A program made the position numbers and the translations under genes. DNA of 41,239 nt, from the NCBI GenBank assembly GCA_028875575.1, contig JAPPDF010000075.1, positions 1-41,239 of the forward strand, in the 5' to 3' direction. This DNA is from Acidobacteriota bacterium. GTDB lineage: Bacteria > Acidobacteriota > Terriglobia > Versatilivoradales > Versatilivoraceae. The notes beneath the pieces were generated by a model that was given only the letters and a program-made list of their open reading frames with translations, had not been told where the DNA came from and did not search any database. Shown one piece after another: positions 14,974 through 30,588 of the stretch (position 1 is its first letter; the number at the start of each line of letters is the position of its first letter).

Positions 14974-14994
14974 TGAAAATGCATATCATTTTCA
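14974..14994. promoter_or_regulatory. Fur-box-like operator 1
   Basis: Perfect 8-base inverted repeat TGAAAATG / CATTTTCA around the spacer CATAT, with the length and AT-rich character of a Fur-family operator. It lies just upstream of the -35 element at 15003. Confidence 0.7.
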
Positions 14995-15002
14995 AAATAG
15001 TA

Positions 15003-15031
15003 TTGACATCCCCACCCATTGGTCGTATGCT
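15003..15031 (+). promoter_or_regulatory. Near-consensus sigma70 promoter of the iron-acquisition block
   Basis: TTGACA (15003-15008), 17-base spacer, TATGCT (15026-15031). Transcription is expected at about 15038. Operator boxes on both sides suggest tight repression when iron is plentiful. Confidence 0.75.
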
Positions 15032-15041
15032 CGCGCTTTAC

Positions 15042-15062
15042 TGAAAGTGAATATCATTTGCA
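15042..15062. promoter_or_regulatory. Fur-box-like operator 2
   Basis: TGAAAGTG / CATTTGCA around AATAT. This has the same layout as operator 1 with two arm mismatches. It covers the first transcribed bases, so a repressor bound here would block promoter clearance. Confidence 0.62.
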
Positions 15063-15109: not shown

Positions 15110-15337
15110 ATGGACAAACCTAGAGTATTTCTGGCCAAGAAAGAAAAGTTCGGGGCGATTTACCAGTGCGAATGTGGTTGCTACCACCTGCAGGTAGGTC
15201 CTTTCAATGTGGCCCTTGCCGAACAATCCTACCTGGAGCTGGTGAGCCTGGTGAATGAGAGCGCTGCCAATTATGAACTATATCGGGAACAGAATGTGAT
15301 TGATAAGAACGGCGGTTGCGGCGCTACTCCAACCTGA
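15110..15337 (+). CDS. Iron-regulated CxCxC mini-protein of unknown function
   Basis: 75 residues from ATG 15110, chosen because GGAGGGG lies immediately upstream (15101-15107); earlier in-frame ATGs fall before or inside the promoter and operator region. The N-terminal half contains the cluster IYQCECGCYHLQVG (C20, C22, C24, H26), which could bind a metal ion or an iron-sulfur centre. A fifth Cys lies near the C-terminus (GGCG). The pattern resembles small single-domain 'Y.C.CG..HL..G....L...e...L' proteins of unknown function (DUF6686-like), but a formal family assignment cannot be made. First gene after the Fur-box promoter, so probably made under iron limitation. Possible roles: metal sensor, chaperone or regulator of the uptake system. 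Confidence 0.78.
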   Translation: MDKPRVFLAKKEKFGAIYQCECGCYHLQVGPFNVALAEQSYLELVSLVNESAANYELYREQNVIDKNGGCGATPT

Positions 15338-16475: not shown

Positions 16476-16718
16476 GGCAGAAAAGCGGGCAGCGTGTGCT
16501 TTGGACGCATGCCGCCTGCAATCCTGCCCCACGAAACAGCCGCGAGAGGATGGCATCCCCGGGCGACCGGTTACCGCTCGGTCATTATAGCCGACAAACC
16601 AGCCATGCGCCATCCTACCTGGCGCGCCCATCGCTCGCCCAGGCCATCCTCTTCCGGCTGTCCAATGCAGAAGTCGTTTTAGAAGGGAAACAACCTTACT
16701 GAGGTGGCAATAGCAGTC

Positions 16719-18971
16719 ATGGGTAGAAATACACTCACATTTCTTATGGCAGTCATTTTCACTTGGGCGCCGCTTCAAGCCCAAAGCGACAGGTTTTTGA
16801 TCGAGGGCACGGTCATCGATTCCACGGGCGGCGTGCTGGTGGGTACGGATGTGTTTCTCCGCGACACCCGTTCCGGGCTTGAAATCCATCAAGTCACCGA
16901 CTGGCAGGGTCAGTACCGATTTCTTGTCGCCCAAGGATCCTACGAACTCACGGCGGCCGAAACCGGGTTCGAGAGCGCGACGGAGAGTGTCACGGTCCAA
17001 CAGGACGTCGAAGTCAACCTGGAGCTGGCTCCCGAGATCCTGGCCGACCAGGTGGTAGTGGTTTCCGGCTCCAGGGAGCAGGAACTGAGCGAGAACTCGA
17101 ACACGAAGGTAGATGTCATCCCCAGCACCATGCTGCACGATACGGGCTACGAGACGGTTCGGGACGTCCTGTCTGAAGAGCCGGGTATCATCACGCGCAG
17201 CGGCTCATCCGGCAACCGGTCCGAAACCCAGATTCAGGGGATCGATTCCCGCCAGTCGCTGATCCTGATCGACGGTCTTCCGATCGTGGGCGCCAAGGGA
17301 ATCAAAAGGGGCATCCTGAACATGGATCGCCAGTCGGTCGGCCGCCTCGAACGCATCGAGATCGTGAAGGGAGCTTCCTCGGCTCTTTACGGTTCCGATG
17401 CCATCGGCGGTGTCATCAACATGATTACCCGTGAACCGACCCAGGCGCTGGAGGGTAGCGTCACTGCCAGCGGTGGGACCCTCAACCGGTTCGATGCCCG
17501 CACAGACATCGGATTCATCAAGGACAAGTGGAGTGGGTTCTTCGAGGTGGAACGTCACAAGCGAAACCCCTACAGCCTTATTGACGACGATATCAGAACC
17601 ACGGGATATGGATTCCACCGCTACGACTATCTCGGCAAGCTGGCCTACAAATTCTCGGAGAACGTTTCGCTGCGGACGATGGCCAATGCTTTCGACAACC
17701 GGGAGAAGGGGAGATACCAGGGAACTTTTGGACCCACGGGTACCATAACCAATGATAGCGCTCAGAACTACAGCACCACAATGGATATCGGACTCTCTCC
17801 GATGACTCAATGGAGTATGCGTGGCTACTACGGCAAGTACGATGAGAGCTCGGCTTTGGATATCCTTGGCCAACCGGGGGAAATCAATGACACCGCCAAC
17901 CTCAACCAGCGCCTCTACCGCTTTGACAGCTCGGTGTCTCAGGTGATTGGCAGCCGGCAGCTTCTGCAGGGAGGGGTCGAGTGGACTCAGGATCAATACC
18001 GCGGTTACAACCGGGTTCTCGGAGACAACGCGGGGCAAGGGATCACGATGGTCGACCTCTGGATCAACGATCGCATCTCCCTTCACAACCGTCTTTCGGT
18101 CACGTTGGGTGGCCGTTTCAACAACCACAGCCGCTACGGAAAACATTTCGTCCCGCGGGCCAGTGCGCTGTTTCGAGTCACCGACAACCTGCGTCTTAGG
18201 GGAGCGGTTGGGCGCGGCTTTCGTGCCCCGGACCTGGGTCAACTCTATTTCCGTTTCCAGAACCCCACCCATTTCTACCAGGTTATCGGTAACACCCATC
18301 TCGAGCCGGAGGAGTCCACCACCTATCAGGTCGGCTTTGACTACAATCCAAGCAAGTTTCGGTTCGCCGTGAACTTCTTCCGCAACGACATCAAGGACCT
18401 GATCCAGGCCGAATACCTTGGCTTTCCCACCAGTCCGCACGCAATGGCGGAACTGCTGGGATCCTTCAGGATCGATCCGGTCTTCAACCCCAGCCTGTTC
18501 CGCGCCTTTTACCACTACCAGAATGTTCAGGACGTCTACACCTCAGGTATCGAGAGCAGGGTGGAACTGAGGTTGACCCGAAACCTGCTCTTGTCCTCCG
18601 GCTACACTTACCTGGACGCGCGGGACAAGGAAACCAATGCCTTCCTGAGCCAGCGCCACCGCCATCACGGCAACTTTCGAATCTTTTACAGCACCGACAA
18701 GTTGGGAGGATTGCGAACCAACTTGCGCGGGACCTATTTCGGCAAGTGGCCCATCGCCGGACGTGGCGGCAGCTCGATCGGCGAGTCCTACCAGATATGG
18801 GACTGGTACCTGGCCAAGCCTCTCAAGCGGGGAATCGAACTGTTTACGTCGCTCGACAACCTGCTTGACAGCCAGGATCCAGGATTGATGTCCATCCAGC
18901 CCACCTTCTTTCGGGCCGATCCGGGACGCCTCGCACGGGTGGGCATCCGCTGGGAATTCGGGGTTGAGTAA
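16719..18971 (+). CDS. TonB-dependent outer-membrane receptor (siderophore/metal type) 1
   Basis: 750 residues from ATG 16719, with GAGGTGG at 16701-16707 as a loosely spaced ribosome-binding site; a GTG at 16704 is also open. Signal peptide MGRNTLTFLMAVIFTWAPLQAQ. An N-terminal carboxypeptidase-regulatory-like domain follows (FLIEGTVIDSTGGVLVGTDVFL to VEVNLELAP). A TonB-box-like VVVVSGSREQE precedes a plug domain (VRDVLSEEPGIITRSGS, IQGIDSRQSLILIDGLP, RIEIVKGASSALYGSDAIGGVINMIT). The rest is a 22-strand beta-barrel, including the 'GRGFRAPDLGQLYF' and 'NTHLEPEESTTYQVGFDY' blocks. Closest in style to BtuB/Cir-like receptors. Energised by TonB-ExbBD, which is not in this window. The substrate is probably ferric siderophore or haem, inferred from the Fur-like upstream operator and the PepSY gene downstream. 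Confidence 0.93.
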   Translation: MGRNTLTFLMAVIFTWAPLQAQSDRFLIEGTVIDSTGGVLVGTDVFLRDTRSGLEIHQVTDWQGQYRFLVAQGSYELTAAETGFESATESVTVQQDVEVNLELAPEILADQVVVVSGSREQELSENSNTKVDVIPSTMLHDTGYETVRDVLSEEPGIITRSGSSGNRSETQIQGIDSRQSLILIDGLPIVGAKGIKRGILNMDRQSVGRLERIEIVKGASSALYGSDAIGGVINMITREPTQALEGSVTASGGTLNRFDARTDIGFIKDKWSGFFEVERHKRNPYSLIDDDIRTTGYGFHRYDYLGKLAYKFSENVSLRTMANAFDNREKGRYQGTFGPTGTITNDSAQNYSTTMDIGLSPMTQWSMRGYYGKYDESSALDILGQPGEINDTANLNQRLYRFDSSVSQVIGSRQLLQGGVEWTQDQYRGYNRVLGDNAGQGITMVDLWINDRISLHNRLSVTLGGRFNNHSRYGKHFVPRASALFRVTDNLRLRGAVGRGFRAPDLGQLYFRFQNPTHFYQVIGNTHLEPEESTTYQVGFDYNPSKFRFAVNFFRNDIKDLIQAEYLGFPTSPHAMAELLGSFRIDPVFNPSLFRAFYHYQNVQDVYTSGIESRVELRLTRNLLLSSGYTYLDARDKETNAFLSQRHRHHGNFRIFYSTDKLGGLRTNLRGTYFGKWPIAGRGGSSIGESYQIWDWYLAKPLKRGIELFTSLDNLLDSQDPGLMSIQPTFFRADPGRLARVGIRWEFGVE

Positions 18972-19160
18972 GGCATTCATTCAATCCTGGGTTTCTTGAG
19001 TCAAACCGACCTTCTTGGTGTAGTCACCGAAAAACTGTGAGCAGGTCTGTCCTTCCGACTTCAATGGGACGGACCTCGTTCAGGAAAACGACACTCTTCT
19101 CGCCGATTGCAGCACTAGGTTCAGGTTCACCTTCGAACCACAACTGGGAAAGACTCATCA

Positions 19161-20396
19161 ATGAGAGGTTTCTGGCATAAGCCTCGAGAACAGCGCTGGC
19201 GTGGTTGGATTTTTCGGATTCACCTCTGGTCCGGCCTCACCATTGGGCTCTGGGCCATTATCATTGGAGTTTCCGGCAGCGTTCTGGTCTTCAAGGATGA
19301 AATTGAATCTCTGGTCGAATCGAAAGTCTTTACCGTTGAACCACAGCCGGGACGTGCCTCACTGGACGCCGTGGTCGCCAAGATCGGAGACCGCTTTCCG
19401 GAGCACACTGTGCTTGGGTTCGGGGGCCTGAACGAAAAAAAACGATCCCACCTGGTCCGCATCGGACGACGGGACACGGATCGCAGGATCGTGAGTCGGT
19501 TCTATGTGCACTACAACCAGTACACCGGCGAGATTTTGGGTTCGTACCCCCACCGGAGCGGCTTTTTCGGTTTCTTTGAGAAGTTGCACTTCTATCTCTT
19601 CATGGGGCGGACCGGGATGAAGGTTAATGCCTTCTTCGGGCTGGCTCTTCTCACGATGTGTGCGACCGGCATCGTGATCTGGTGGCCGGGTGCGAAGAGG
19701 TGGAGAGAGGGGATTCGAGTCAAGTGGGGAGCCGGCCGGAAGCGAGTCAATTACGATCTCCACCGCGCCACCGGTTTCTCGGTTGCGGTCTTGTTGGCAG
19801 TGATGGCGTTTACCGGCTTTTATTTCGGATTTCCCTTTGTTGTCATGGAAGCCTTGACGAGGGTGGCCGGCGCCGATGCCGCCGAGGTCAGGAAGTTCTT
19901 TAGAGGTCCAAAATCGCAGGTTGTGGAGGGTGCGCCGCGAATTTCTCTTGATTTGCTCATCCGCAAAAGTGCGAAGCTGTTTCTACCAGGAACGGAACTG
20001 TCTCGCATCTCCGTCCCCGCCCGGGCCAATGGTGCCTTCACCCTGGCCGGCGTGCGCTCGGGCAACCCGGCGCTTCGGGGGCGAACCGGGGCTTACATTG
20101 ACCAGTACAGCGGACAGGTTCTGGCCTCATTTGATTCACGTGAGCAGTCTCCGGGAATGCGGCTGGCGCTTATGCTCAGCCCCATCCATTTCGGGCTCTG
20201 GGGTGGGATGTGGTCCAAGGGACTCTGGTTCCTGCTCGGCCTTGCCCCGGGAACTCTCATCACCACCGGCTTCCTGATGTGGTGGAATCGGGTTGCGGGC
20301 AAGCGCTATCGCGCCTGGCGACAGTCATCTTTGGATACCCCGGCCAAGGCAGGTCCCGGACTCTCACAAACTGTAACCGACAAAGTTCAGGCATGA
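19161..20396 (+). CDS. PepSY-associated transmembrane protein (iron-regulated, PiuB/FsrB-like)
   Basis: 411 residues. Four membrane helices are visible (about residues 18-42, 153-175, 198-225 and 350-376), separated by a large periplasmic region with PepSY-like domains. The first helix begins 'IHLWSGLTIGLWAIIIGVSGSVLVF', the standard start of the family. Conserved histidines (FRIHLW, KLHFYLF, DLHRATG, PIHFGLW) are the expected haem or metal ligands. Homologues in siderophore loci act as inner-membrane ferric-siderophore reductases. Placed directly after TonB receptor 1, which supports that role. GGAAAG upstream is a fair ribosome-binding site. Confidence 0.9.
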   Translation: MRGFWHKPREQRWRGWIFRIHLWSGLTIGLWAIIIGVSGSVLVFKDEIESLVESKVFTVEPQPGRASLDAVVAKIGDRFPEHTVLGFGGLNEKKRSHLVRIGRRDTDRRIVSRFYVHYNQYTGEILGSYPHRSGFFGFFEKLHFYLFMGRTGMKVNAFFGLALLTMCATGIVIWWPGAKRWREGIRVKWGAGRKRVNYDLHRATGFSVAVLLAVMAFTGFYFGFPFVVMEALTRVAGADAAEVRKFFRGPKSQVVEGAPRISLDLLIRKSAKLFLPGTELSRISVPARANGAFTLAGVRSGNPALRGRTGAYIDQYSGQVLASFDSREQSPGMRLALMLSPIHFGLWGGMWSKGLWFLLGLAPGTLITTGFLMWWNRVAGKRYRAWRQSSLDTPAKAGPGLSQTVTDKVQA

Positions 20397-21921: not shown

Positions 21922-22006
21922 CCCGCTGCCGTTCCCTCCCGAAGTTTCCTACATAGGCCTCTGCCTTCCAACCCCTGGCCTGGACAGCCACCGCACCGAA
22001 AAAATA

Positions 22007-22035
22007 TTGCAATTGAATTTCAGTTTCATAATAAT
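22007..22035 (+). promoter_or_regulatory. Candidate promoter of TonB receptor 2 with weak Fur-like spacer
   Basis: TTGCAA (22007-22012), 17-base AT-rich spacer, AATAAT (22030-22035). The spacer has only a weak TGAA...TTCA symmetry, so Fur control here is uncertain. The region is clearly more AT-rich than its surroundings. Confidence 0.45.
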
Positions 22036-22114: not shown

Positions 22115-24595
22115 ATGCCGAAACCAGGAAACTTCATGCTGCGGGCATTGGTCTGTACGCTCTCGATCATTCTGGCCTCAATCTCCACGGGCTACGCAGC
22201 CACCTTTGGAATCCGAGGCCAGGTGCTCGATCCCTCCGGAACTCCCATGTCCGGGGCTACGGTGACATTGACATCGGGCGATCAGAGCCCCGAAAAAAGT
22301 CTCCAAACCGGAGAGGACGGCCGTTTTCGCTTCGGCGACTTAAGCCAGGGGAGTTATCGAATCACTGCTTCAAGCCGGGGCTATCGCACGGCTGACCGGA
22401 GTCTGAGTCTGCCGGAGGATGCGGCTGATGAGGTCCAGTTGAGGTTGCAGCCCGATCCGAATTTGACCATCTACGAGCGCATCATGGTGGTGGGCGATCC
22501 CGAGCGTGTGGATGAAATCCCCGGTGCAGCCCATATCATTGGTCCGACAGAGTTGAAGAGGCAGAAGCAGGGGCTGGACGATATTCATCGCATGCTGAGG
22601 CAGATCCCCGGTGTCAATATTCAGGAAGAGGAGGGCTACGGGCTACGGCCCAACATCGGGATGCGAGGGACGGGAGTGGATCGAAGCTCCAAGATCACCC
22701 TGATGGAGGACGGTGTCCTGATTGCACCGGCTCCTTACGCTGCCCCCTCGGCCTACTACTTCCCCACCTCGGGACGCATGCGATCGCTGGAGGTTCGAAA
22801 GGGTTCCAGCCAGATCAAATACGGCCCCAGAACCAATGGCGGTGTCCTGAACCTGGTGTCCAGCGAAATCCCGCAAGCGCTGAGCCTGGATGGCAAGCTC
22901 GGTTTCGGGTCCGACTCGGCGGGTCAGGGACACCTCAACCTGGGAGGGACTCACGGCAACTTCGGATGGCTGCTCGAAAGCTACCAGGTGAAAACCGATG
23001 GCTTCAAGGAACTGGACGGCGGAGGGAACACGGGATTCTATATCGGCGATTATATGGCCAAGCTTCGCTTTCAAACGCCTCTGGACGCCAGGATTTTCCA
23101 GCAATTCGAGGTAAAGCTGGGCTCCACCGAACAGGACTCGGAAGAAACCTATCTGGGCCTGACCGACGATGACTTTGCCATCAATCCCAACCGTCGCTAT
23201 GCAGCCTCTCAGATCGACCGATTCGACTCCAACCATCGTCAGTATCAGGCCCGGTATTTCGTTGCCGTTCCCGGTGGTCTGGACGTGACCACCGTTGTCT
23301 ATCGCAACAACTTTGCCCGAAACTGGTTCAAGCTCCAGAGTATTGGCGGCAACAGCATCTCCAGAATTTTCGGGAGTCCCGAAACCTATGCCGACGAGTT
23401 GGCGATCGCCCGGGGAGCAGACAGCGATCCTGACATGCTGAAGGTCAGAGCCAACAACCGCCAGTATTACTCTCAGGGCATACAGTCCGTGTTGGGCCTG
23501 CACCGCCACCTGGGAAACGCTCAACATCGTTTTGAATTCGGCTTTCGCTACCATGAGGATCAGGAAGCCCGACTCCAGCATGAGGATGGTTTCCAGATGA
23601 GTGGCGGCCGCATGAACCGAACCAGCTTTGGCCCTCCCGGTAGCCAGTCCAATCGACTTAGCGATGCTGAAGCGCGATCCTTCTTTTTCCAGGATGAGAT
23701 CCAGTGGGACCGCTGGACGGTCATACCCGGCATCCGCTACGAGAATATCGACCTGACCCGGACGGACTTCTCCAAGACCGATCCCGGCAGAACCGATCCA
23801 ACCCGGGTCAGGACCAATGCCGTGCAGGTGGTGATCCCTGGTGTGGGGGTCAATTTCGATGCCAGTCAAAACGTGCGGCTCTTTGGCGGCGTCCACAAGG
23901 GTTTCTCGCCGCCGGGGCCCGGATCGAACGAATTTACCGAGGCCGAGGACAGCGTCAACTACGAGTTCGGGTTCGGTCTAGGTCAGCTGGGCTTCAACAC
24001 CCAACTGGTGGCCTTTTACAGCGACTACGGCAATCTCCTGGGGGCAGACACGCTGGCAGCCGGAGGACAGGGAACGGGAGACCTCTATAACGGCGGAGAA
24101 GCCCGTGTTGTGGGTTTGGAGGCCTCGGTATCGTTCGACCCGGCTGCAAGCTCGCAGTCCGGAATCTCTTTACCCGTGCAGATCGCCTATACCGTCACCG
24201 ACGGCGAGTTTCGAAACGCCTTCGACAGTGCTTTCGGCCCTTGGGGGGACGTGGTCGTCGGAGACCAGCTTCCCTATCTGCCTCGTCACCAGTTTTATGC
24301 AAGCTTTGGCGTCAGGACCGACAAGTGGGATGCAGGCTTAGACACCCACTGGGGGAGCAGCATGAGAACCGTGGCCGGCCAGGGAGCGGCCCCTTTGCTG
24401 GATCGCACCGACGCCTACGCCGTGCTCAACCTGTCGACGGAATATGAGCTCTCACAACGGGCCAGTCTATTTGCCAACCTGCAGAACGTGACCAACAATC
24501 GTTACATCGTGGCCCGCCGCCCCGCCGGCGTTCGACCGGGACTTCCCCGTCTCTTCATGGCCGGGATTCACTTCAGGCTGGGGAGTGATCGGTAG
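22115..24595 (+). CDS. TonB-dependent outer-membrane receptor (FecA-like) 2
   Basis: 826 residues; AAGGAA about 9 bases upstream supports ATG 22115. Signal peptide to about residue 28 (LASISTGYA). A carboxypeptidase-regulatory-like domain follows (FGIRGQVLDPSGTPMSGATVTL to EVQLRLQP). The plug carries HRMLRQIPGVNIQEEEGYGLRPNIGMRGTGVDRSSKITLMEDGV and 'RSLEVRKGSSQIKYGPRTNGGVLNLVS', very close to FecA-type ferric citrate or siderophore receptors. A long barrel ends 'PRLFMAGIHFRLGSDR'. It lacks the extra FecA N-terminal signalling domain, so it should not signal through an anti-sigma factor. Second receptor of the same uptake block; probable substrate a ferric chelate. Confidence 0.93.
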   Translation: MPKPGNFMLRALVCTLSIILASISTGYAATFGIRGQVLDPSGTPMSGATVTLTSGDQSPEKSLQTGEDGRFRFGDLSQGSYRITASSRGYRTADRSLSLPEDAADEVQLRLQPDPNLTIYERIMVVGDPERVDEIPGAAHIIGPTELKRQKQGLDDIHRMLRQIPGVNIQEEEGYGLRPNIGMRGTGVDRSSKITLMEDGVLIAPAPYAAPSAYYFPTSGRMRSLEVRKGSSQIKYGPRTNGGVLNLVSSEIPQALSLDGKLGFGSDSAGQGHLNLGGTHGNFGWLLESYQVKTDGFKELDGGGNTGFYIGDYMAKLRFQTPLDARIFQQFEVKLGSTEQDSEETYLGLTDDDFAINPNRRYAASQIDRFDSNHRQYQARYFVAVPGGLDVTTVVYRNNFARNWFKLQSIGGNSISRIFGSPETYADELAIARGADSDPDMLKVRANNRQYYSQGIQSVLGLHRHLGNAQHRFEFGFRYHEDQEARLQHEDGFQMSGGRMNRTSFGPPGSQSNRLSDAEARSFFFQDEIQWDRWTVIPGIRYENIDLTRTDFSKTDPGRTDPTRVRTNAVQVVIPGVGVNFDASQNVRLFGGVHKGFSPPGPGSNEFTEAEDSVNYEFGFGLGQLGFNTQLVAFYSDYGNLLGADTLAAGGQGTGDLYNGGEARVVGLEASVSFDPAASSQSGISLPVQIAYTVTDGEFRNAFDSAFGPWGDVVVGDQLPYLPRHQFYASFGVRTDKWDAGLDTHWGSSMRTVAGQGAAPLLDRTDAYAVLNLSTEYELSQRASLFANLQNVTNNRYIVARRPAGVRPGLPRLFMAGIHFRLGSDR

Positions 24596-24676: not shown

Positions 24677-25654
24677 TCAGGCTGGGGAGGGAGGATTGGA
24701 CGGGCCCAACAGCCGATCGCACTCCTGCTGAATCAGATCGCAGTGCTCCAACTCTTCCTCGGCAAACTTCTGAAAGATGGCCTTGCCGCGGGTGTCGTTG
24801 AATCTTTCGGCGTAGCGTTTGAAAAAACTGTGGGCTCCCTGCTCCATGGAGAGAGCCAGGTGTAGAGCCTCTTCCAGGCTCAACCGTTCCACACCTCGCT
24901 TCTGGAGCTCTTCGGGACTGGGGAAAAGTCGATTGAGTTCGTTGTAGTCGAAGTGCAGGAATTCGGGAGCCTTCAGTATCCGCTTGTTCCGCTTTATCAG
25001 GGCCTCCCACTCTCCCTCAAGCTCCCTCAGGTGCTTACCCTCTTCGGCCGCCATATCGAGAAAAGCCTTTTTCCCCCGCGGGTCCTTGGCTGCCTTGGCC
25101 AAGGCCTGGTAAAAATTCACGCCGTTTCTCTCGGTCTGCAGGGCGATTTGGAGGGCATCGCGGGCAAAGACCAGGTCGGAGTCGAAATCCTCGTGCCGGG
25201 CCGGGCGATGTTTCAGGCAGTCCTCACATACTCCGAACACCTGGAAGTGGTGGCGCACCGGCCGGAAGCGATAGCGTAAGACGACCTGTTCCTGAAGCTG
25301 CTCCAGCTCGGGGCTGAGGAACTCGATCGTCTTCGGACACTCCACGCATATGATGTGATGATGGTGAGGGCGCTTGTAGAGCGGTTCGAATCGGCTGCGG
25401 CTGTCTCCCAGGTCGATCTCCCTTGCCAGACCCGAGTCGGTCAGGGCCTTCATGGTTCGCGAGACGGTGGCATACCCGATGGTCTTGTCCTTTTGCCGGA
25501 CCTGGTTGTATAGCTCCTCCGTGCTCAGGTGGCCTTCGGTCTTGAGAAAGTTGTCGAGGATGACCTGGCGCTGGCGGGTGATCTTGAGCTTTTTCTTCTT
25601 CAGATAAGCGGCAAAGATTTTCTTCTGTTCGGCCAGGTCTCGGTTCGCAGCCAT
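24677..25654 (-). CDS. Fur-family repressor fused to a rubrerythrin/ferritin-like diiron domain
   Basis: 325 residues from MAANRDLAEQKK (25654); the frame stays open further upstream, but that part crosses the promoter region. Residues 10-90 form the winged helix (KITRQRQVILDNFL, HLSTEELYNQV, GYATVSRTMKALTDSGLA). HHHHIICVECPKTIEF (H97-H100, C103, C106) and CEDC (C143, C146) are the Fur metal-binding and structural zinc sites. Residues 160-325 form a four-helix diiron domain. Its two half-sites are evenly spaced: E175, E205-x-x-H208 and E271, E301-x-x-H304, each first Glu being exactly 30 residues before the ExxH. The diiron domain could let the repressor sense peroxide, oxygen or iron status directly, or bind iron. 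It faces the TonB receptor 2 gene and is divergent from an OsmC-like gene. The function as local regulator is inferred. Confidence 0.9.
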   Translation of the reverse strand: MAANRDLAEQKKIFAAYLKKKKLKITRQRQVILDNFLKTEGHLSTEELYNQVRQKDKTIGYATVSRTMKALTDSGLAREIDLGDSRSRFEPLYKRPHHHHIICVECPKTIEFLSPELEQLQEQVVLRYRFRPVRHHFQVFGVCEDCLKHRPARHEDFDSDLVFARDALQIALQTERNGVNFYQALAKAAKDPRGKKAFLDMAAEEGKHLRELEGEWEALIKRNKRILKAPEFLHFDYNELNRLFPSPEELQKRGVERLSLEEALHLALSMEQGAHSFFKRYAERFNDTRGKAIFQKFAEEELEHCDLIQQECDRLLGPSNPPSPA

Positions 25655-25748: not shown

Positions 25749-25867
25749 CCGGCCCGAGCGGCTGTCAGGAGCCAGGGTATCTCCCGGACAGCGGCAACAG
25801 TCTCCCAAAAATTTGAGTTATGATGCTGGTGGTGGCCCGTACTCCAGGGTCCGACAGGGAGCAATCC

Positions 25868-26311
25868 ATGGCCAAACAGGTGCAGGTCCGTATTGACCAG
25901 GCAGGGCCGGCGACCTCCACGGCCCAGGTACGAGGCCATCGAATTTCAGTGGATCGTCCCCTGGAAAGAGGGGGAGACAACCGAGGCCCCATGGGAGGCG
26001 AGCTGATTCTGGTAGGCCTTGGGGGGTGTTTTACCAGCAACCTTCTGGCGGCCATCCGCGCTCGCCAGGCGGCTGTTTCGGGGGTGTCCACCACCGTCAC
26101 CGCCACCTTGGCCGAGAACCCCTCCCGGTTTGCCGCCATTGACCTGGCCGTATCCGCCGAGTGCGGCGATGCCGCTCTTTTTCACAAGCTGGTCACCATT
26201 GCGGAACGTGGTTGTATCGCGGCCAATACCCTGCGCGACGGCGTGAAATTGACGGTTCGTGTCGCTCAGGCGGAGCCGGCCGTTGCCCCGCCACGCCCCG
26301 GCGACGCTTGA
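25868..26311 (+). CDS. OsmC/Ohr-family thiol peroxidase-like protein
   Basis: 147 residues from MAKQVQVRIDQAG; an earlier in-frame ATG (25820) lies in the intergenic region, and AGGGAGC precedes ATG 25868. The family core is 'MGGELILVGLGGCFTSNLLAAIRARQA' with the first reactive Cys and 'ERGCIAANTLRDGVKLTV' with the second Cys, matching the two-Cys pair of OsmC/Ohr enzymes that reduce organic hydroperoxides. The subgroup is nearer general OsmC than Ohr. Divergent from the Fur-ferritin gene, which fits a peroxide or iron stress unit. Confidence 0.85.
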   Translation: MAKQVQVRIDQAGPATSTAQVRGHRISVDRPLERGGDNRGPMGGELILVGLGGCFTSNLLAAIRARQAAVSGVSTTVTATLAENPSRFAAIDLAVSAECGDAALFHKLVTIAERGCIAANTLRDGVKLTVRVAQAEPAVAPPRPGDA

Positions 26312-26356: not shown

Positions 26357-26385
26357 TTGCGGGCAATCCATAAATCCAATAAAAT
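26357..26385 (+). promoter_or_regulatory. Probable promoter of the cysteine desulfurase / radical SAM / isoprenoid operon
   Basis: TTGCGG (26357-26362), 17-base spacer, TAAAAT (26380-26385). It lies between the OsmC-like stop and the first operon gene and leaves a leader of about 75 bases. Confidence 0.5.
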
Positions 26386-26467
26386 CCGAAGTTTCTGGGC
26401 AATTACCGATCCGTCAACGCCCGGGAGACCGTTTTCCGGTGCTGTGGGAAAGGGGCCTCATCGAACG

Positions 26468-27655
26468 ATGGCCGTCTATCTGGATTGCGCCGCCACTGCC
26501 CCGCTGGATCCTCGGGTGCAGCGGGAGGTCATGACCTATCTGGAGGTTGAATTCGGCAATGCCGGCAGTCGGCATCACGAGTTCGGTACCAGAGCCCGCA
26601 GCGCCGTGGAAAAGGCGCGTGTCCAGGTGGCGGCGGTGGTGGGCGCCACCCGGGGCGAGATCGTCTTTACCAGCGGCGCTACCGAAAGCAACAACCTGGC
26701 TCTGCTGGGATTGGCCGAACATGGAGCCAAGACCGGCAGGACTCATCTCGTCAGCACCCGGATTGAGCACAAGTCCGTATTGGAGCCCCTGCGGACCCTT
26801 TCCGGCCGGGGTTTCGAAGTCACGCTGGTAGCCCCGGAGCCCGGCGGCTGGGTGCATCCTCGGGCTATCCTGGAAGCGCTTAGAGAGAATACCCTTCTGG
26901 TCTCGGTAATGCAGGTCAACAACGAGACCGGTGTCATTCAGCCCATCCGGGAAATCGCCCGTTTGCTTGAGAACCATCCCGCCTATCTGCACGTGGATGC
27001 CGCCCAGGGTTTCGGGAAGGAAATCGCGTCGCTGCGCGACCGTCGCATCGACCTGATCAGCATCAGCGGACACAAGGTCTATGGCCCCAAGGGCATCGGT
27101 GCCCTGGCGACCCGCCGGCGGAACGGAAAGCGGCCTCCCCTCATCCCTTTAATGCATGGGGGAGGTCAGGAACTGGGATTGCGCCCGGGGACGCTGCCGG
27201 TTCCGCTGATTGCAGGCCTCGGCAAGGCCTCCGAACTGGCTTTGGGGGAGCATCGGGAACGCAATGCGACCTGTCGAAGGTTCCGGGAGATTGTCCTGAG
27301 AAGGTTGCAGCCGCTGAATCCCGTTTTCAACGGGGACCTCGACCGCACGGTTCCACATATCGTCAATTTGACCCTTCCGGGAATCGGCTCGGAGGAAGCT
27401 ATCGAGGCGGTGAGCCAGGTGGCTGCCATCTCCAACGGGTCTGCCTGCACCTCGACCTCCGAGAGTTGCAGCCACGTGTTGAGCGCTCAAGGGCTGGACG
27501 AGGATCGCATGGAGGGAGCCCTTCGCCTTTCCTGGTGCCATCTCAGCCGGCAGCCCGACTGGAACGGATTCATTCGAGCAATTGAAGCGATTCCAGTCGC
27601 GGAGCACCCGGACAGGTCAACCGTGGTAGGGATTGGTCAGGCCGGCGTTGTCTGA
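26468..27655 (+). CDS. DndA-type cysteine desulfurase
   Basis: 395 residues from MAVYLDCAATAPLDP. PLP enzyme that takes sulfur from cysteine as a persulfide. Motifs: FTSGATESNNLA, HVDAAQGFGKE, SISGHKVYGPKGIGAL with PLP Lys203, GGGQELGLRPGTLPVPLIAG, and NGSACTSTSESCSHVL with catalytic Cys327. The phrases EFGNAGSRHHEFG, VMQVNNETGVIQPI and 'GALRLSWCHLSRQPDW' are those of the DndA subgroup (DNA phosphorothioation), not IscS or SufS. No dndB, dndC, dndD or dndE lies nearby. The gene instead heads an operon of lipoyl, Fe-S and isoprenoid proteins, so the sulfur is probably passed to that pathway or used for Fe-S assembly. Confidence 0.88.
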   Translation: MAVYLDCAATAPLDPRVQREVMTYLEVEFGNAGSRHHEFGTRARSAVEKARVQVAAVVGATRGEIVFTSGATESNNLALLGLAEHGAKTGRTHLVSTRIEHKSVLEPLRTLSGRGFEVTLVAPEPGGWVHPRAILEALRENTLLVSVMQVNNETGVIQPIREIARLLENHPAYLHVDAAQGFGKEIASLRDRRIDLISISGHKVYGPKGIGALATRRRNGKRPPLIPLMHGGGQELGLRPGTLPVPLIAGLGKASELALGEHRERNATCRRFREIVLRRLQPLNPVFNGDLDRTVPHIVNLTLPGIGSEEAIEAVSQVAAISNGSACTSTSESCSHVLSAQGLDEDRMEGALRLSWCHLSRQPDWNGFIRAIEAIPVAEHPDRSTVVGIGQAGVV

Positions 27656-27679
27656 GGCGGAACACTGGTTACCATCCGA

Positions 27680-28156
27680 ATGGGACAAGACCGGCAGCGG
27701 CAAATTCGCTACAAGCGATCCAGGTTTTCAACGCGGCTGCCGGTGGATCGACGCTATACCGCCTCTCACTTCTGGACTGTCGAGCAGCAATCCGGCCTGT
27801 GGCGGGTGGGAATGACCAAATTCGCCACACGAATGCTCGGCGATCTTGTAGAATTCGAATTCGACGCCAGGCCGGGCCAGCAGGTCAGCGTTGGCCAGAC
27901 CATCGGCTGGATCGAAGCCTTCAAGGCCCTGACCGACCTTTATTGTGTGGTCGACGGGGTCTTCGAAAGTGTGAACCCCCTGATCGAGCAGGACATCAGC
28001 CTGGTCGACACCGATCCCTACGGAAAGGGCTGGCTCTACAGCGTCAGCGGCACCCTCGAATCCAACAGCGTGGACGTGCAGGGATACGTGGAGATTCTGG
28101 ATCTCACCATCGACAAGATGAAAGAGCAGTCGGGGCACAAGGACGATCATGGATAA
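27680..28156 (+). CDS. GcvH-like lipoyl-carrier protein with C-terminal extension
   Basis: 158 residues. The fold is that of glycine-cleavage H protein: 'RYTASHFWTVEQQSGLWRVGMTKFATRMLGDLVEF', then EAFKALTDLY, which carries the expected lipoylation Lys82 at the hairpin, then DTDPYGKGWLYSV. The N-terminal 20 residues are basic. A roughly 25-residue helical tail (YVEILDLTIDKMKEQSGHKDDHG) is unlike normal GcvH. No other glycine-cleavage gene (P, T or L) is in the window. It lies 24 bases after the desulfurase stop and overlaps the next gene by 8 bases, so it is an operon-specific lipoyl or sulfur carrier, comparable in idea with the LbpA carriers of sHdr systems (inference). Confidence 0.82.
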   Translation: MGQDRQRQIRYKRSRFSTRLPVDRRYTASHFWTVEQQSGLWRVGMTKFATRMLGDLVEFEFDARPGQQVSVGQTIGWIEAFKALTDLYCVVDGVFESVNPLIEQDISLVDTDPYGKGWLYSVSGTLESNSVDVQGYVEILDLTIDKMKEQSGHKDDHG

Positions 28157-29288
28157 AGCCCGCTACATCATGATCGGTGGTTTTCTCGGGGCCGGCAAGA
28201 CTACGGCCGTGTTGCGCCTGGCCGAGCTCTTGCAACGCCGCGGGTCTCAAGTGGGATTGATCACCAACGACCAGAGCCACGGACTGGTCGATACCGCTGT
28301 GCTCGGCTCCAGCGGCTTTCCCGTGGAAGAGATTACGGGCGGCTGCTTCTGCTGCAAGTTCGATTCCCTGGTAGGCGCCTCCGAGCGCCTGTCGAGGGAG
28401 CAACGCCCCGATGTCTTCCTGGCCGAGCCGGTGGGGAGCTGCACCGATTTGAAAGCCACGGTGGACTATCCCCTGCGCCGCATGTATGGCGGCAACTACT
28501 GGATCGCTCCCCTCAGCGTTATGGTGGACCCGGTTCGGGCCCTGCGCATTCTGGAGCTCGAGCCCGGCAAGTCTTTCTCCTCCAAGGTGGTTTATGTCTA
28601 CCGCAAGCAGTTGGAGGAAGCCGACATCATCGTCGTCAACAAGATCGACCTCCTCAGTTCCCAGCGCCTGGAACGACTCAGTCAGGCGCTGCAGGAGATG
28701 TTTTCCCCCGACCGGGTGCTGGCTGTTTCCGCCCGCCAGGGTACAGGGCTGGAGGAATGGTTCGAACGGATTTCCCAACCCCTGGAGTCCATGCAGCGGG
28801 ACCTTGAAGTGGATTACGATACCTACGCCGAAGGAGAGGCGCTGCTGGGTTGGCTCAACTGCAGTTTGCGGGTGGAGGCCAACGCCGGTTTTGACGGCAA
28901 TGCCCTTCTGCACAAGGCGATGACGGCCATCCAGCGACGCCTCCGGTCCCGGGAAATCGCACACTTGAAGATGACCTTGACCCCTGACGAGCAGGGCAAC
29001 GATATCGGCGTGGCCAACCTGACCGGTACCGATGGCGTTCCGGAGCAGTCCCATGTGTTGCAAGACCCCCTGAGTACCGGGGAACTCATTGTCAACCTGC
29101 GAGCGGAGGCCGATCCGCAAGCTCTGAGGAGCCTGGTTCTGGAGGTTTTAGAGGCCATCGGCCGGGATGATGGCGTGGCCGTCAAGATCGAGCACCTGGA
29201 AGCCTTCCGGCCGGCCCGACCCACGCCCACCCATCGACTGCGGGCGTCGCAATCCGGTATGGCGGCCACGCAGGCCACTCCCGTTTAG
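28149..29288 (+). CDS. CobW/G3E-family GTPase
   Basis: 379 residues. Metallochaperone-type GTPase. Walker A is GGFLGAGKTT (residues 10-19). The family metal motif GGCFCCKF (C66, C68, C69) matches the CxCC of zinc or cobalt carriers. Walker B lies in 'DVFLAEPVGSC', and VNKIDLL gives guanine specificity. The C-terminal 170 residues lack a recognisable CobW C-terminal domain. It overlaps the GcvH-like gene by 8 bases (ATG 28149 inside 'GATCATGGATAA'). Possible role: delivery of a metal to a partner in this operon. The identity of the metal cannot be read. Confidence 0.85.
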   Translation: MDKARYIMIGGFLGAGKTTAVLRLAELLQRRGSQVGLITNDQSHGLVDTAVLGSSGFPVEEITGGCFCCKFDSLVGASERLSREQRPDVFLAEPVGSCTDLKATVDYPLRRMYGGNYWIAPLSVMVDPVRALRILELEPGKSFSSKVVYVYRKQLEEADIIVVNKIDLLSSQRLERLSQALQEMFSPDRVLAVSARQGTGLEEWFERISQPLESMQRDLEVDYDTYAEGEALLGWLNCSLRVEANAGFDGNALLHKAMTAIQRRLRSREIAHLKMTLTPDEQGNDIGVANLTGTDGVPEQSHVLQDPLSTGELIVNLRAEADPQALRSLVLEVLEAIGRDDGVAVKIEHLEAFRPARPTPTHRLRASQSGMAATQATPV

Positions 29289-29290
29289 GT

Positions 29291-29698
29291 ATGGCAAACA
29301 ATCACGATGCCAACATGCCGGGTCCCGCAGTCCCGGGACCGGTGACGGCACAGCCGGGAAAAATCCTCTATTGCCGCTGCGCCTATGCCAAGGTGATTGC
29401 TCCGGATGTCAAGGATGAGGTCCTTCAACGGCTTGCCCGGTCGGGTGCAACCTTTGAGGCCGTTCCCGATCTGTGCGAGATGTCCGCCCGGCGTGACCCG
29501 GCGCTCAAGCGGCTGGCGGCGGAGGATAAAATCAGGATTGCAGCCTGCTATCCAAGAGCCGTAAAATGGCTTTTTTCAGCGGCTCAGGCACCTTTGACTA
29601 AAGATACCGTTGAAATTCTGAACATGCGTGTCGACAGCGCCGGAACGGTCGTCGAACGCCTCCTTGAGGGGTGTTCGCGAGGGGAGGAATCGTCGTGA
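29291..29698 (+). CDS. HdrA-like cysteine mini-protein
   Basis: 135 residues. The core resembles the N-terminal segment of heterodisulfide reductase subunit A: 'ILYCRCAYAKVI' (C28, C30), then PDLCEMS (C62), then 'RIAACYPRAVKWLF' (C86), the counterpart of the HdrA 'MCS' and 'vvvAACSPRtHe' motifs. No FAD or ferredoxin domain follows, so it is a stand-alone version. The first 24 residues are Ala/Pro/Gly-rich and unstructured. The stop overlaps the GTG start of the next gene (GTGA), so it is co-translated with the ferredoxin, and the two probably form one electron-transfer unit. Function inferred; no exact family name is available. Confidence 0.6.
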   Translation: MANNHDANMPGPAVPGPVTAQPGKILYCRCAYAKVIAPDVKDEVLQRLARSGATFEAVPDLCEMSARRDPALKRLAAEDKIRIAACYPRAVKWLFSAAQAPLTKDTVEILNMRVDSAGTVVERLLEGCSRGEESS

Positions 29699-30588
29699 TC
29701 GCTCCCAAGACTCCTCTCCGGATTGGTCTCTACCGGAACGGCGGCCGGCCCCTGCCTGGCGACGACCGGCACTACGACCTGACCCGCAGCCTCCTCGATA
29801 AAGGCTATGCGGTTTCGGTCATCCGCTCAAACAGCCAGCTCGGAGACCTGCAGGAAGGCGCATGGCTTCTACTGGGATGCTTCGGCAAGGAAGAACCGCT
29901 TCCCGCCATGGGAAACGGGAACGGAGACAAGCTCTACTTTCGGGACATCGACGGTCTCGAAACCTCCCAGATTCTGGATGCCGTTGAGGAGGTGCGAGGG
30001 CAAACCGAGCTGCCCGATCCCGGTGGCTGGAAACCCTGGTTTCCTGTCATCGATTACAACCGCTGCACCAACTGCATGCAGTGCCTGAGCTTCTGTCTCT
30101 TTGACGTCTACGGGGTGCACGAGGACAAGATCCAGGTCCAGAACGAAAGCAACTGCAAGACGGACTGCCCTGCCTGCTCCCGAGTATGCCCCGAGGTGGC
30201 CATTCTCTTTCCCAAGTACAAGAGCGGCCCCATCAACGGCGATGTGGTCCGCCAGGAGGACATCCAGCGCGAGGCCATGAAGGTGGACATCTCGGCCCTG
30301 CTGGGCGGGGATCTCTACAGTTCCCTGCGCACGCGTCAGACGGAGGCCCGACAGCGCTTCTCCACCGAGCGGGACGAGTCTCGGGCCCTGCTGGAGCGCA
30401 AGAAGTGCCTGCGCAAGCTGAAGAAGGACTTTGACATCCCGGACGAGGTTCTGATGAGCCTGCCCTCGGCCGGCGACATACAGGAACGGGCCGAACGGGC
30501 CAAGGCGAAGCTGGCTGCCCGCCAGGAACGCTCCCAGACCGTTAAGGACAACCGCCCGGCTCCCACCGAAGACGACTGGGGAATCTAG
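29695..30588 (+). CDS. Two-cluster (2x[4Fe-4S]) ferredoxin-like protein
   Basis: 297 residues from GTG 29695, chosen for its GGGGAGG ribosome-binding site and the 4-base overlap; a GTG at 29671 is less well placed. The N-terminal 110 residues form a globular domain without a recognised name. Cluster 1: RCTNCMQCLSFC (C124, C127, C130, C134). Cluster 2: NCKTDCPACSRVCPEV (C154, C158, C161, C165). The rest is a charged, helical tail ending PTEDDWGI. Probable role: pass electrons to the radical SAM enzyme 4 bases downstream or to the HdrA-like partner. Confidence 0.82.
   Translation: MIAPKTPLRIGLYRNGGRPLPGDDRHYDLTRSLLDKGYAVSVIRSNSQLGDLQEGAWLLLGCFGKEEPLPAMGNGNGDKLYFRDIDGLETSQILDAVEEVRGQTELPDPGGWKPWFPVIDYNRCTNCMQCLSFCLFDVYGVHEDKIQVQNESNCKTDCPACSRVCPEVAILFPKYKSGPINGDVVRQEDIQREAMKVDISALLGGDLYSSLRTRQTEARQRFSTERDESRALLERKKCLRKLKKDFDIPDEVLMSLPSAGDIQERAERAKAKLAARQERSQTVKDNRPAPTEDDWGI

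Follow-up and report, generated by a model that had tools for sequence, protein, structure and literature searches.

A Fur-family repressor joined in one frame to a rubrerythrin-like, predicted diiron domain in Acidobacteriota

Results

The fusion gene and its surroundings

The window, that is, the whole 41,239-nucleotide stretch of DNA that we analyzed, comes from a sponge-associated Acidobacteriota bacterium and carries on its reverse strand an unbroken frame encoding a complete Fur repressor and, C-terminal to it, a four-helix domain of the rubrerythrin-like (COG1633) type (Table 1). Its start codon agrees with the start in the aligned congeners. Fur is the textbook iron regulator, described as a protein of about 130–170 residues that reads Fe(II), and Acidobacteriota are abundant in soils and sponges; to our knowledge, iron regulation in this phylum has been little studied.

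An earlier reading made from the DNA letters (the sequence-only reading) had pointed to the position of the gene opposite an iron-uptake block and divergent from an OsmC-like gene. This setting is real in the window, but it holds over a short range: the TonB-receptor neighbor was found beside the fusion in five congeners, a conservation that does not extend beyond the genus, and three of these five also retain the OsmC-like neighbor. A gene neighborhood conserved across the phylum was looked for and not found, and the TonB neighbor is absent beside the distant fusions. In another fusion branch (families f26, f31, and f46), the fusion adjoins a co-directional Fe-S_biosyn (ErpA/IscA-type) gene lying directly upstream (L163:6994-10057, L169:6958-9986, and L170:7015-8587); in two of these three cases, L163 and L169, a class I fumarase gene lies on its far side. 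Separately, a row of forward-strand genes at 26357-30588 of the window, largely conserved in the congeners, encodes a class-V aminotransferase (cysteine desulphurase-like), a GcvH-like protein, a CobW GTPase, a small protein, and a 4Fe-4S protein.

Table 1 Features of the fusion locus and of the predicted Fur-box sites in the window.
Feature	Positions	Strand	Details
Predicted Fur box GAAAATGCATATCATTTTC	14975..14993	.	Upstream of the promoter
Sigma-70-like promoter TTGACA-17-TATGCT	15003..15031	+	Between the two predicted Fur boxes
Second predicted Fur box GAAAGTGAATATCATTTGC	15043..15061	.	
TonB receptor, iron-uptake block	16704-18971	+	
PepSY-TM protein, iron-uptake block	19161-20396	+	Block 16704..20396
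TonB-receptor promoter footprint TTGCAATTGAATTTCAGTTTCATAATAAT	22007..22035	+	Promoter-like site whose spacer holds overlapping Fur-box heptamers
TonB-dependent receptor gene	22115..24595	+	Convergent with the fusion; PF00593, E 2e-36
Fur-rubrerythrin fusion gene	24677..25654	-	325 aa; ATG at 25654, stop ends at 24677; conserved as one frame in the phylum
Ferritin-like (COG1633/rubrerythrin-type) four-helix domain	24707..25180	-	Residues 159-316; predicted ligands E175, E205/H208, E271, E301/H304
Interdomain linker, variable	25181..25207	-	Residues 150-158; entropy about 2.1-3.7 bits; low pLDDT at 150-154
Fur domain	25208..25627	-	Residues 10-149; Pfam PF01475; winged helix, regulatory and structural Zn sites
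OsmC-like gene	25820..26311	+	Divergent from the fusion; PF02566, E 3.4e-13

A complete Fur repressor

The N-terminal half matches Pfam FUR (PF01475) at residues 21-139 with an E value of 7.5e-30, covering model positions 2-120 of 121, and it matches the NCBIfam Fur/PerR models, all below their cut-offs. A sequence search of the PDB aligned residues 14-149 with Campylobacter Fur (E 1e-23), and the structure model of this half has the Fur fold, with Foldseek matches to Fur/PerR structures. In a conservation set of 52 fusions sharing less than 85% identity with each other, the regulatory site H42/E90/H98/H100/E111 is 100% conserved (52 of 52), as is the structural Zn site formed by two CxxC motifs, C103/C106/C143/C146 (52 of 52). 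The CVEC and CEDC metal sites proposed earlier thus have invariant cysteines, while the HHHH stretch proposed alongside them is present in this genus, with only H98 and H100 conserved in the family.

Residue E111 aligns with the corresponding Glu of Campylobacter Fur, and the PerR-type Asp is absent from this position, where all 52 fusions carry Glu. PerR peroxide sensors typically have an Asp here that enables peroxide sensing. The invariant Glu therefore makes it unlikely that the Fur site itself senses peroxide, and any peroxide response would need the diiron domain. By analogy with the families to which the two halves belong, the Cys4 site would hold zinc, the regulatory site Fe(II), and the bundle a diiron center.

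A four-helix bundle with a predicted diiron site

Pfam PF02915 (Rubrerythrin) matches the C-terminal half in two stretches (E 1.1e-10, the best at residues 166-212), and DUF2383 is a further Pfam match in the fusion. NCBIfam ferritin-like models (EncB, MbfA, and encapsulin ferritin-like) match the same half, all below their cut-offs, and COG1633-type ferritin-like proteins of the PDB match it weakly in sequence. Modeled alone with AF2, the domain forms a confident four-helix bundle (pLDDT 91.8, pTM 0.85) with main helices at residues 159-188, 192-222, 260-282, and 289-316 and a conserved P230-x-FL-x-F in the connection between helices B and C. The full-length model reached a pLDDT of 78.8 and a pTM of 0.54, the placement of the two domains relative to each other being uncertain. 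The best VIA match of the C-terminal domain was the COG1633 protein 2oh3 (Z 15.1, rmsd 3.3, 138 residues aligned), followed by Dps-like PA4880, ferritins, and bacterioferritins (Z about 12-13.6), and Foldseek gave no match at E < 0.001; the fold assignment rests on the VIA Z scores, the Pfam matches, and the confident model. The sequence of the first helix pair recurs in the second, with residues 167-222 aligning to the second pair of a relative, and such internal duplication of helix pairs is usual in the ferritin-like superfamily.

All six ligands of a predicted diiron site are present as two E...ExxH half-sites, and the spacings given in the sequence-only reading proved exact: 175/205 and 271/301 are both 30 residues apart, and the second Glu of each pair is followed by xxH. 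Rubrerythrin proper carries an additional Glu ligand (ExxE) in helix C; the fusion has no such ligand (E271-QGA, E175-RNG), and Pfam found no rubredoxin-like domain in it.

The six ligand columns have a mean entropy of 0.44 bits, against 1.67 bits for the domain. Random column sets were as low in 12 of 100,000 draws, and six-column sets of Glu/His columns in 1 of 100,000. Among the 52 fusions, conservation was 92% for E175, 92% for E205, 94% for H208, 85% for E271, 94% for E301, and 100% for H304, with the complete set in 43 of the 52 non-redundant fusions. The ligands do not vary freely, as losses are confined to genomes of one family, f30.

Spread, selection, and origin of the fusion

The fusion was found at full length in at least 67 of 395 other sampled Acidobacteriota genomes, with 31-57% identity, a minimum count, as the search could have overlooked highly divergent fusions. 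Together with the genome under study, the fusions span 21 families (numbered within our sample) and about 41 genera. The proposed joining of Fur and a ferritin-like domain with a diiron signature is borne out by Pfam FUR and PF02915 in one frame and by conservation across the phylum. Division of the frame into two genes was looked for in relatives: it is single in all full-length ones, which rules out a split gene or an assembly artifact, and the sole apparent split (L084) is interrupted by a run of N. Within the genus, the C-terminal domain gave dN/dS values of 0.04-0.12 and the Fur domain values of 0.03-0.12, which indicates purifying selection on both halves; this and the conservation rule out a chance open reading frame.

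Nine fusions of family f30 (L031, L033-L039, and L063) lack at least one diiron ligand and retain the C-terminal domain and all Fur residues, which means that the fold can persist without the site. These ligand-poor fusions form a natural contrast group. Each of the nine shares its genome with one or more additional Fur proteins, compared with 23 of the 58 other fusions (Fisher p 7e-4), an association that is only a hint, since the losses belong to one family and are not independent.

In the Fur-domain tree, the fusions stand at three places and need three changes, which fits either one fusion with later losses or several fusions. Stand-alone relatives of the C-terminal domain have the same ligand pattern at about 30% identity. 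A contig scan with one protein, whose reach is close relatives, gave full-length matches in Acidobacteriota only, and the plasmids searched gave no full-length match.

The fusion is the only Fur protein of many genomes

In its own genome, for which completeness is estimated at 100%, the fusion is the single PF01475 protein, and no PF02915 protein other than the fusion was found. It is also the only Fur-family protein of the closed single-contig congener G396 (5.1 Mb) and stands alone in the remaining congeners in which a Fur was found. Across the phylum, it is the sole Fur in 31 of 59 high-quality fusion genomes.

Other probable iron regulators were observed in the genome. At L193:3513-7617 (G000:C80:185512-189616), genes for a DtxR-FeoA fusion regulator, for a further protein of DtxR_C-FeoA type, whose N-terminus is hydrophobic, and for FeoB stand in a row, each of the two DtxR-type proteins bearing its own FeoA domain. 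As DtxR-family proteins adjoin feoB, iron control in this organism is probably shared with them.

Predicted Fur boxes at iron-uptake promoters

The region 14974-15062, suggested earlier as a target of the protein, looks like a genuine Fur-box site, with two predicted boxes flanking a sigma-70-like promoter. A scan of the 4.49 Mb genome gave only three sites with at most three mismatches to GAAAATGCATATCATTTTC, two of them being these boxes, and the reversed control gave none at this threshold. The third box-like site precedes a Kelch-repeat protein gene (L088:3207-4322) and recurs in congeners (L106-L108); the gene divergent from the Kelch-repeat gene looks NfeD/SPFH-like. Directly 3′ of the doubly boxed promoter, the forward strand encodes a 75-residue protein (15110-15337) with the Cys motif CECGCYHLQVG and no Pfam match.

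At the promoter of the TonB-receptor gene facing the fusion, 25 of the 33 columns in the block 22003-22035 are invariant in six congeners, compared with 30 of 173 outside it (Fisher p 1e-10). The heptamer inverted repeats of this footprint overlap, 6 bases apart, in the classic Fur-box layout. The promoter itself may explain part of the conservation, yet the spacer is conserved too. In three family members whose only Fur proteins are fusions (G402, G403, and G405), perfect or near-perfect boxes lie about 40-170 bases upstream of TonB-receptor genes, so that predicted 19-bp Fur boxes appear to be conserved at TonB promoters where the fusion is the sole Fur. In other families of the class, Fur boxes precede feoB. 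A search of the interval separating the fusion from the OsmC-like gene found no autoregulatory box, and none of the genes for distant fusions has a Fur box closer than about 7 kb.

Taken with its sole-Fur status, the boxes at TonB-receptor promoters make the fusion most likely the working Fur of the organism.

Discussion

The whole N-terminal half of the fusion resembles Campylobacter jejuni Fur (6d57/4ets) in fold, Zn(Cys)4 site, and regulatory residues, and Fur boxes are its predicted targets. However, the chain of known Fur proteins stops shortly past the second CxxC, whereas the fusion continues for about 175 residues with the diiron domain. That domain shares the four-helix bundle, the doubled E-30-ExxH pattern, and the internal duplication with COG1633 proteins (2oh3, TM1526 1vjx, and 2fzf) and with rubrerythrin, which, unlike the fusion, are stand-alone proteins; the fusion also lacks the rubredoxin domain and the extra Glu ligand of rubrerythrin proper. 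In MbfA, a membrane-bound ferritin-like iron exporter, a COG1633-type domain is likewise joined to another iron-homeostasis domain, and the MbfA model matches the C-terminal half of the fusion weakly (E 1e-6, below the cut-off). MbfA, however, has a C-terminal VIT1-type membrane domain and no DNA-binding domain, while the fusion ends after the bundle. Like PerR, a Fur-family repressor that couples iron to peroxide, the fusion may join these two signals, but in PerR the protein's own mononuclear site is the peroxide sensor and relies on the Asp that is replaced by Glu here. FBXL5 and the plant BTS/BTSL proteins offer an analogy only, in that a diiron four-helix domain serves as an iron sensor limiting iron uptake; they have a hemerythrin fold, are eukaryotic, act through ubiquitin ligase output, and are not homologous as a system.

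The literature searched, which took in a minority of the subscription papers, yielded no account of a Fur-rubrerythrin or Fur-ferritin-like fusion, and automated databases may already show this architecture.

The reading that we favor, at about an even chance, is that of a working Fur that represses TonB-dependent iron uptake through Fur boxes, with the rubrerythrin-like diiron domain as a second input. The fusion would act as a metal-dependent dimeric repressor that shuts off this uptake by binding classic Fur boxes directly. In iron-replete cells, the dimer would repress with Fe(II) bound both at the Fur site (H42/E90/H98/H100/E111) and in the diiron center. Under iron scarcity, or when the diiron center is oxidized by O2 or peroxide, the pair of C-terminal bundles, expected to dimerize like other domains of the same kind, would change state and thereby alter DNA binding. 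It is plausible that the diiron center senses iron, O2, or peroxide in this manner. The ferritin-like domain of MbfA has ferroxidase activity (PMC7762939) and dimerizes (PMC4902296), and the diiron domains of plant BTS/BTSL are iron sensors whose iron is partly labile when reduced and whose centers are oxidized by O2 and H2O2 (PMC12022348). These precedents, together with the Glu at position 111, lead us to place an iron- or oxidant-responsive second input, to which we give roughly one chance in two, before the two explanations of the domain considered next.

The ferroxidase activity of MbfA could also be read as a sign that the C-terminal domain is an enzyme, a tethered ferroxidase or peroxidase that clears Fe(II) or H2O2 from the surroundings of Fur and the DNA, or that passes iron to and from the Fur site, leaving the Fur half alone to govern DNA binding. 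Ferroxidase-active ferritin-like domains indeed have this same ligand set (E, ExxH, E, ExxH), and the iron-sulphur assembly gene adjoining the fusion in f26, f31, and f46 fits a role in iron handling. Yet there is no rubredoxin domain to serve as electron donor, and since regulators are usually low-copy proteins, stoichiometric detoxification by one of them would be weak; we regard this explanation as rather unlikely. Still less probable in our judgment is that the domain is mainly a dimerization or oligomerization scaffold stabilizing the Fur dimer, its metal site only holding the fold. Dimerization of the MbfA domain and the nine f30 fusions that retain the domain without the full ligand set would agree with such a role, but all other lineages, at 31-57% identity, keep the ligands, which rank with the best-conserved positions, and all nine ligand-poor fusions sit in genomes with a further Fur, while 35 of the 58 others are the sole Fur, counts that come from lineages that are not independent.

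The signal itself could also be another one. The Fur family includes Zur and Mur, which have similar metal residues, and two DtxR-type proteins adjoin feoB, so the fusion might respond to a different metal (Zn or Mn) or, in the manner of PerR, to peroxide, with the DtxR-type regulators running iron uptake. We consider this improbable, the lowest in our ranking: Fur boxes stand before TonB receptors in genomes without another Fur protein, and a PerR-like response is opposed by the absent Asp and the invariant Glu.

Returning to the second-input reading, a bolder form of it, which we advance only tentatively, is that a ferritin-type diiron center inside the repressor reports O2 or peroxide as well as iron, so that the roles of Fur and PerR would be merged in one polypeptide across much of the Acidobacteriota. 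The six-residue signature and the lineage without it make the idea of a second input testable. If true, a diiron domain on the only Fur protein of many Acidobacteriota would give this regulator a second metal-redox input and directly join iron and oxygen signals.
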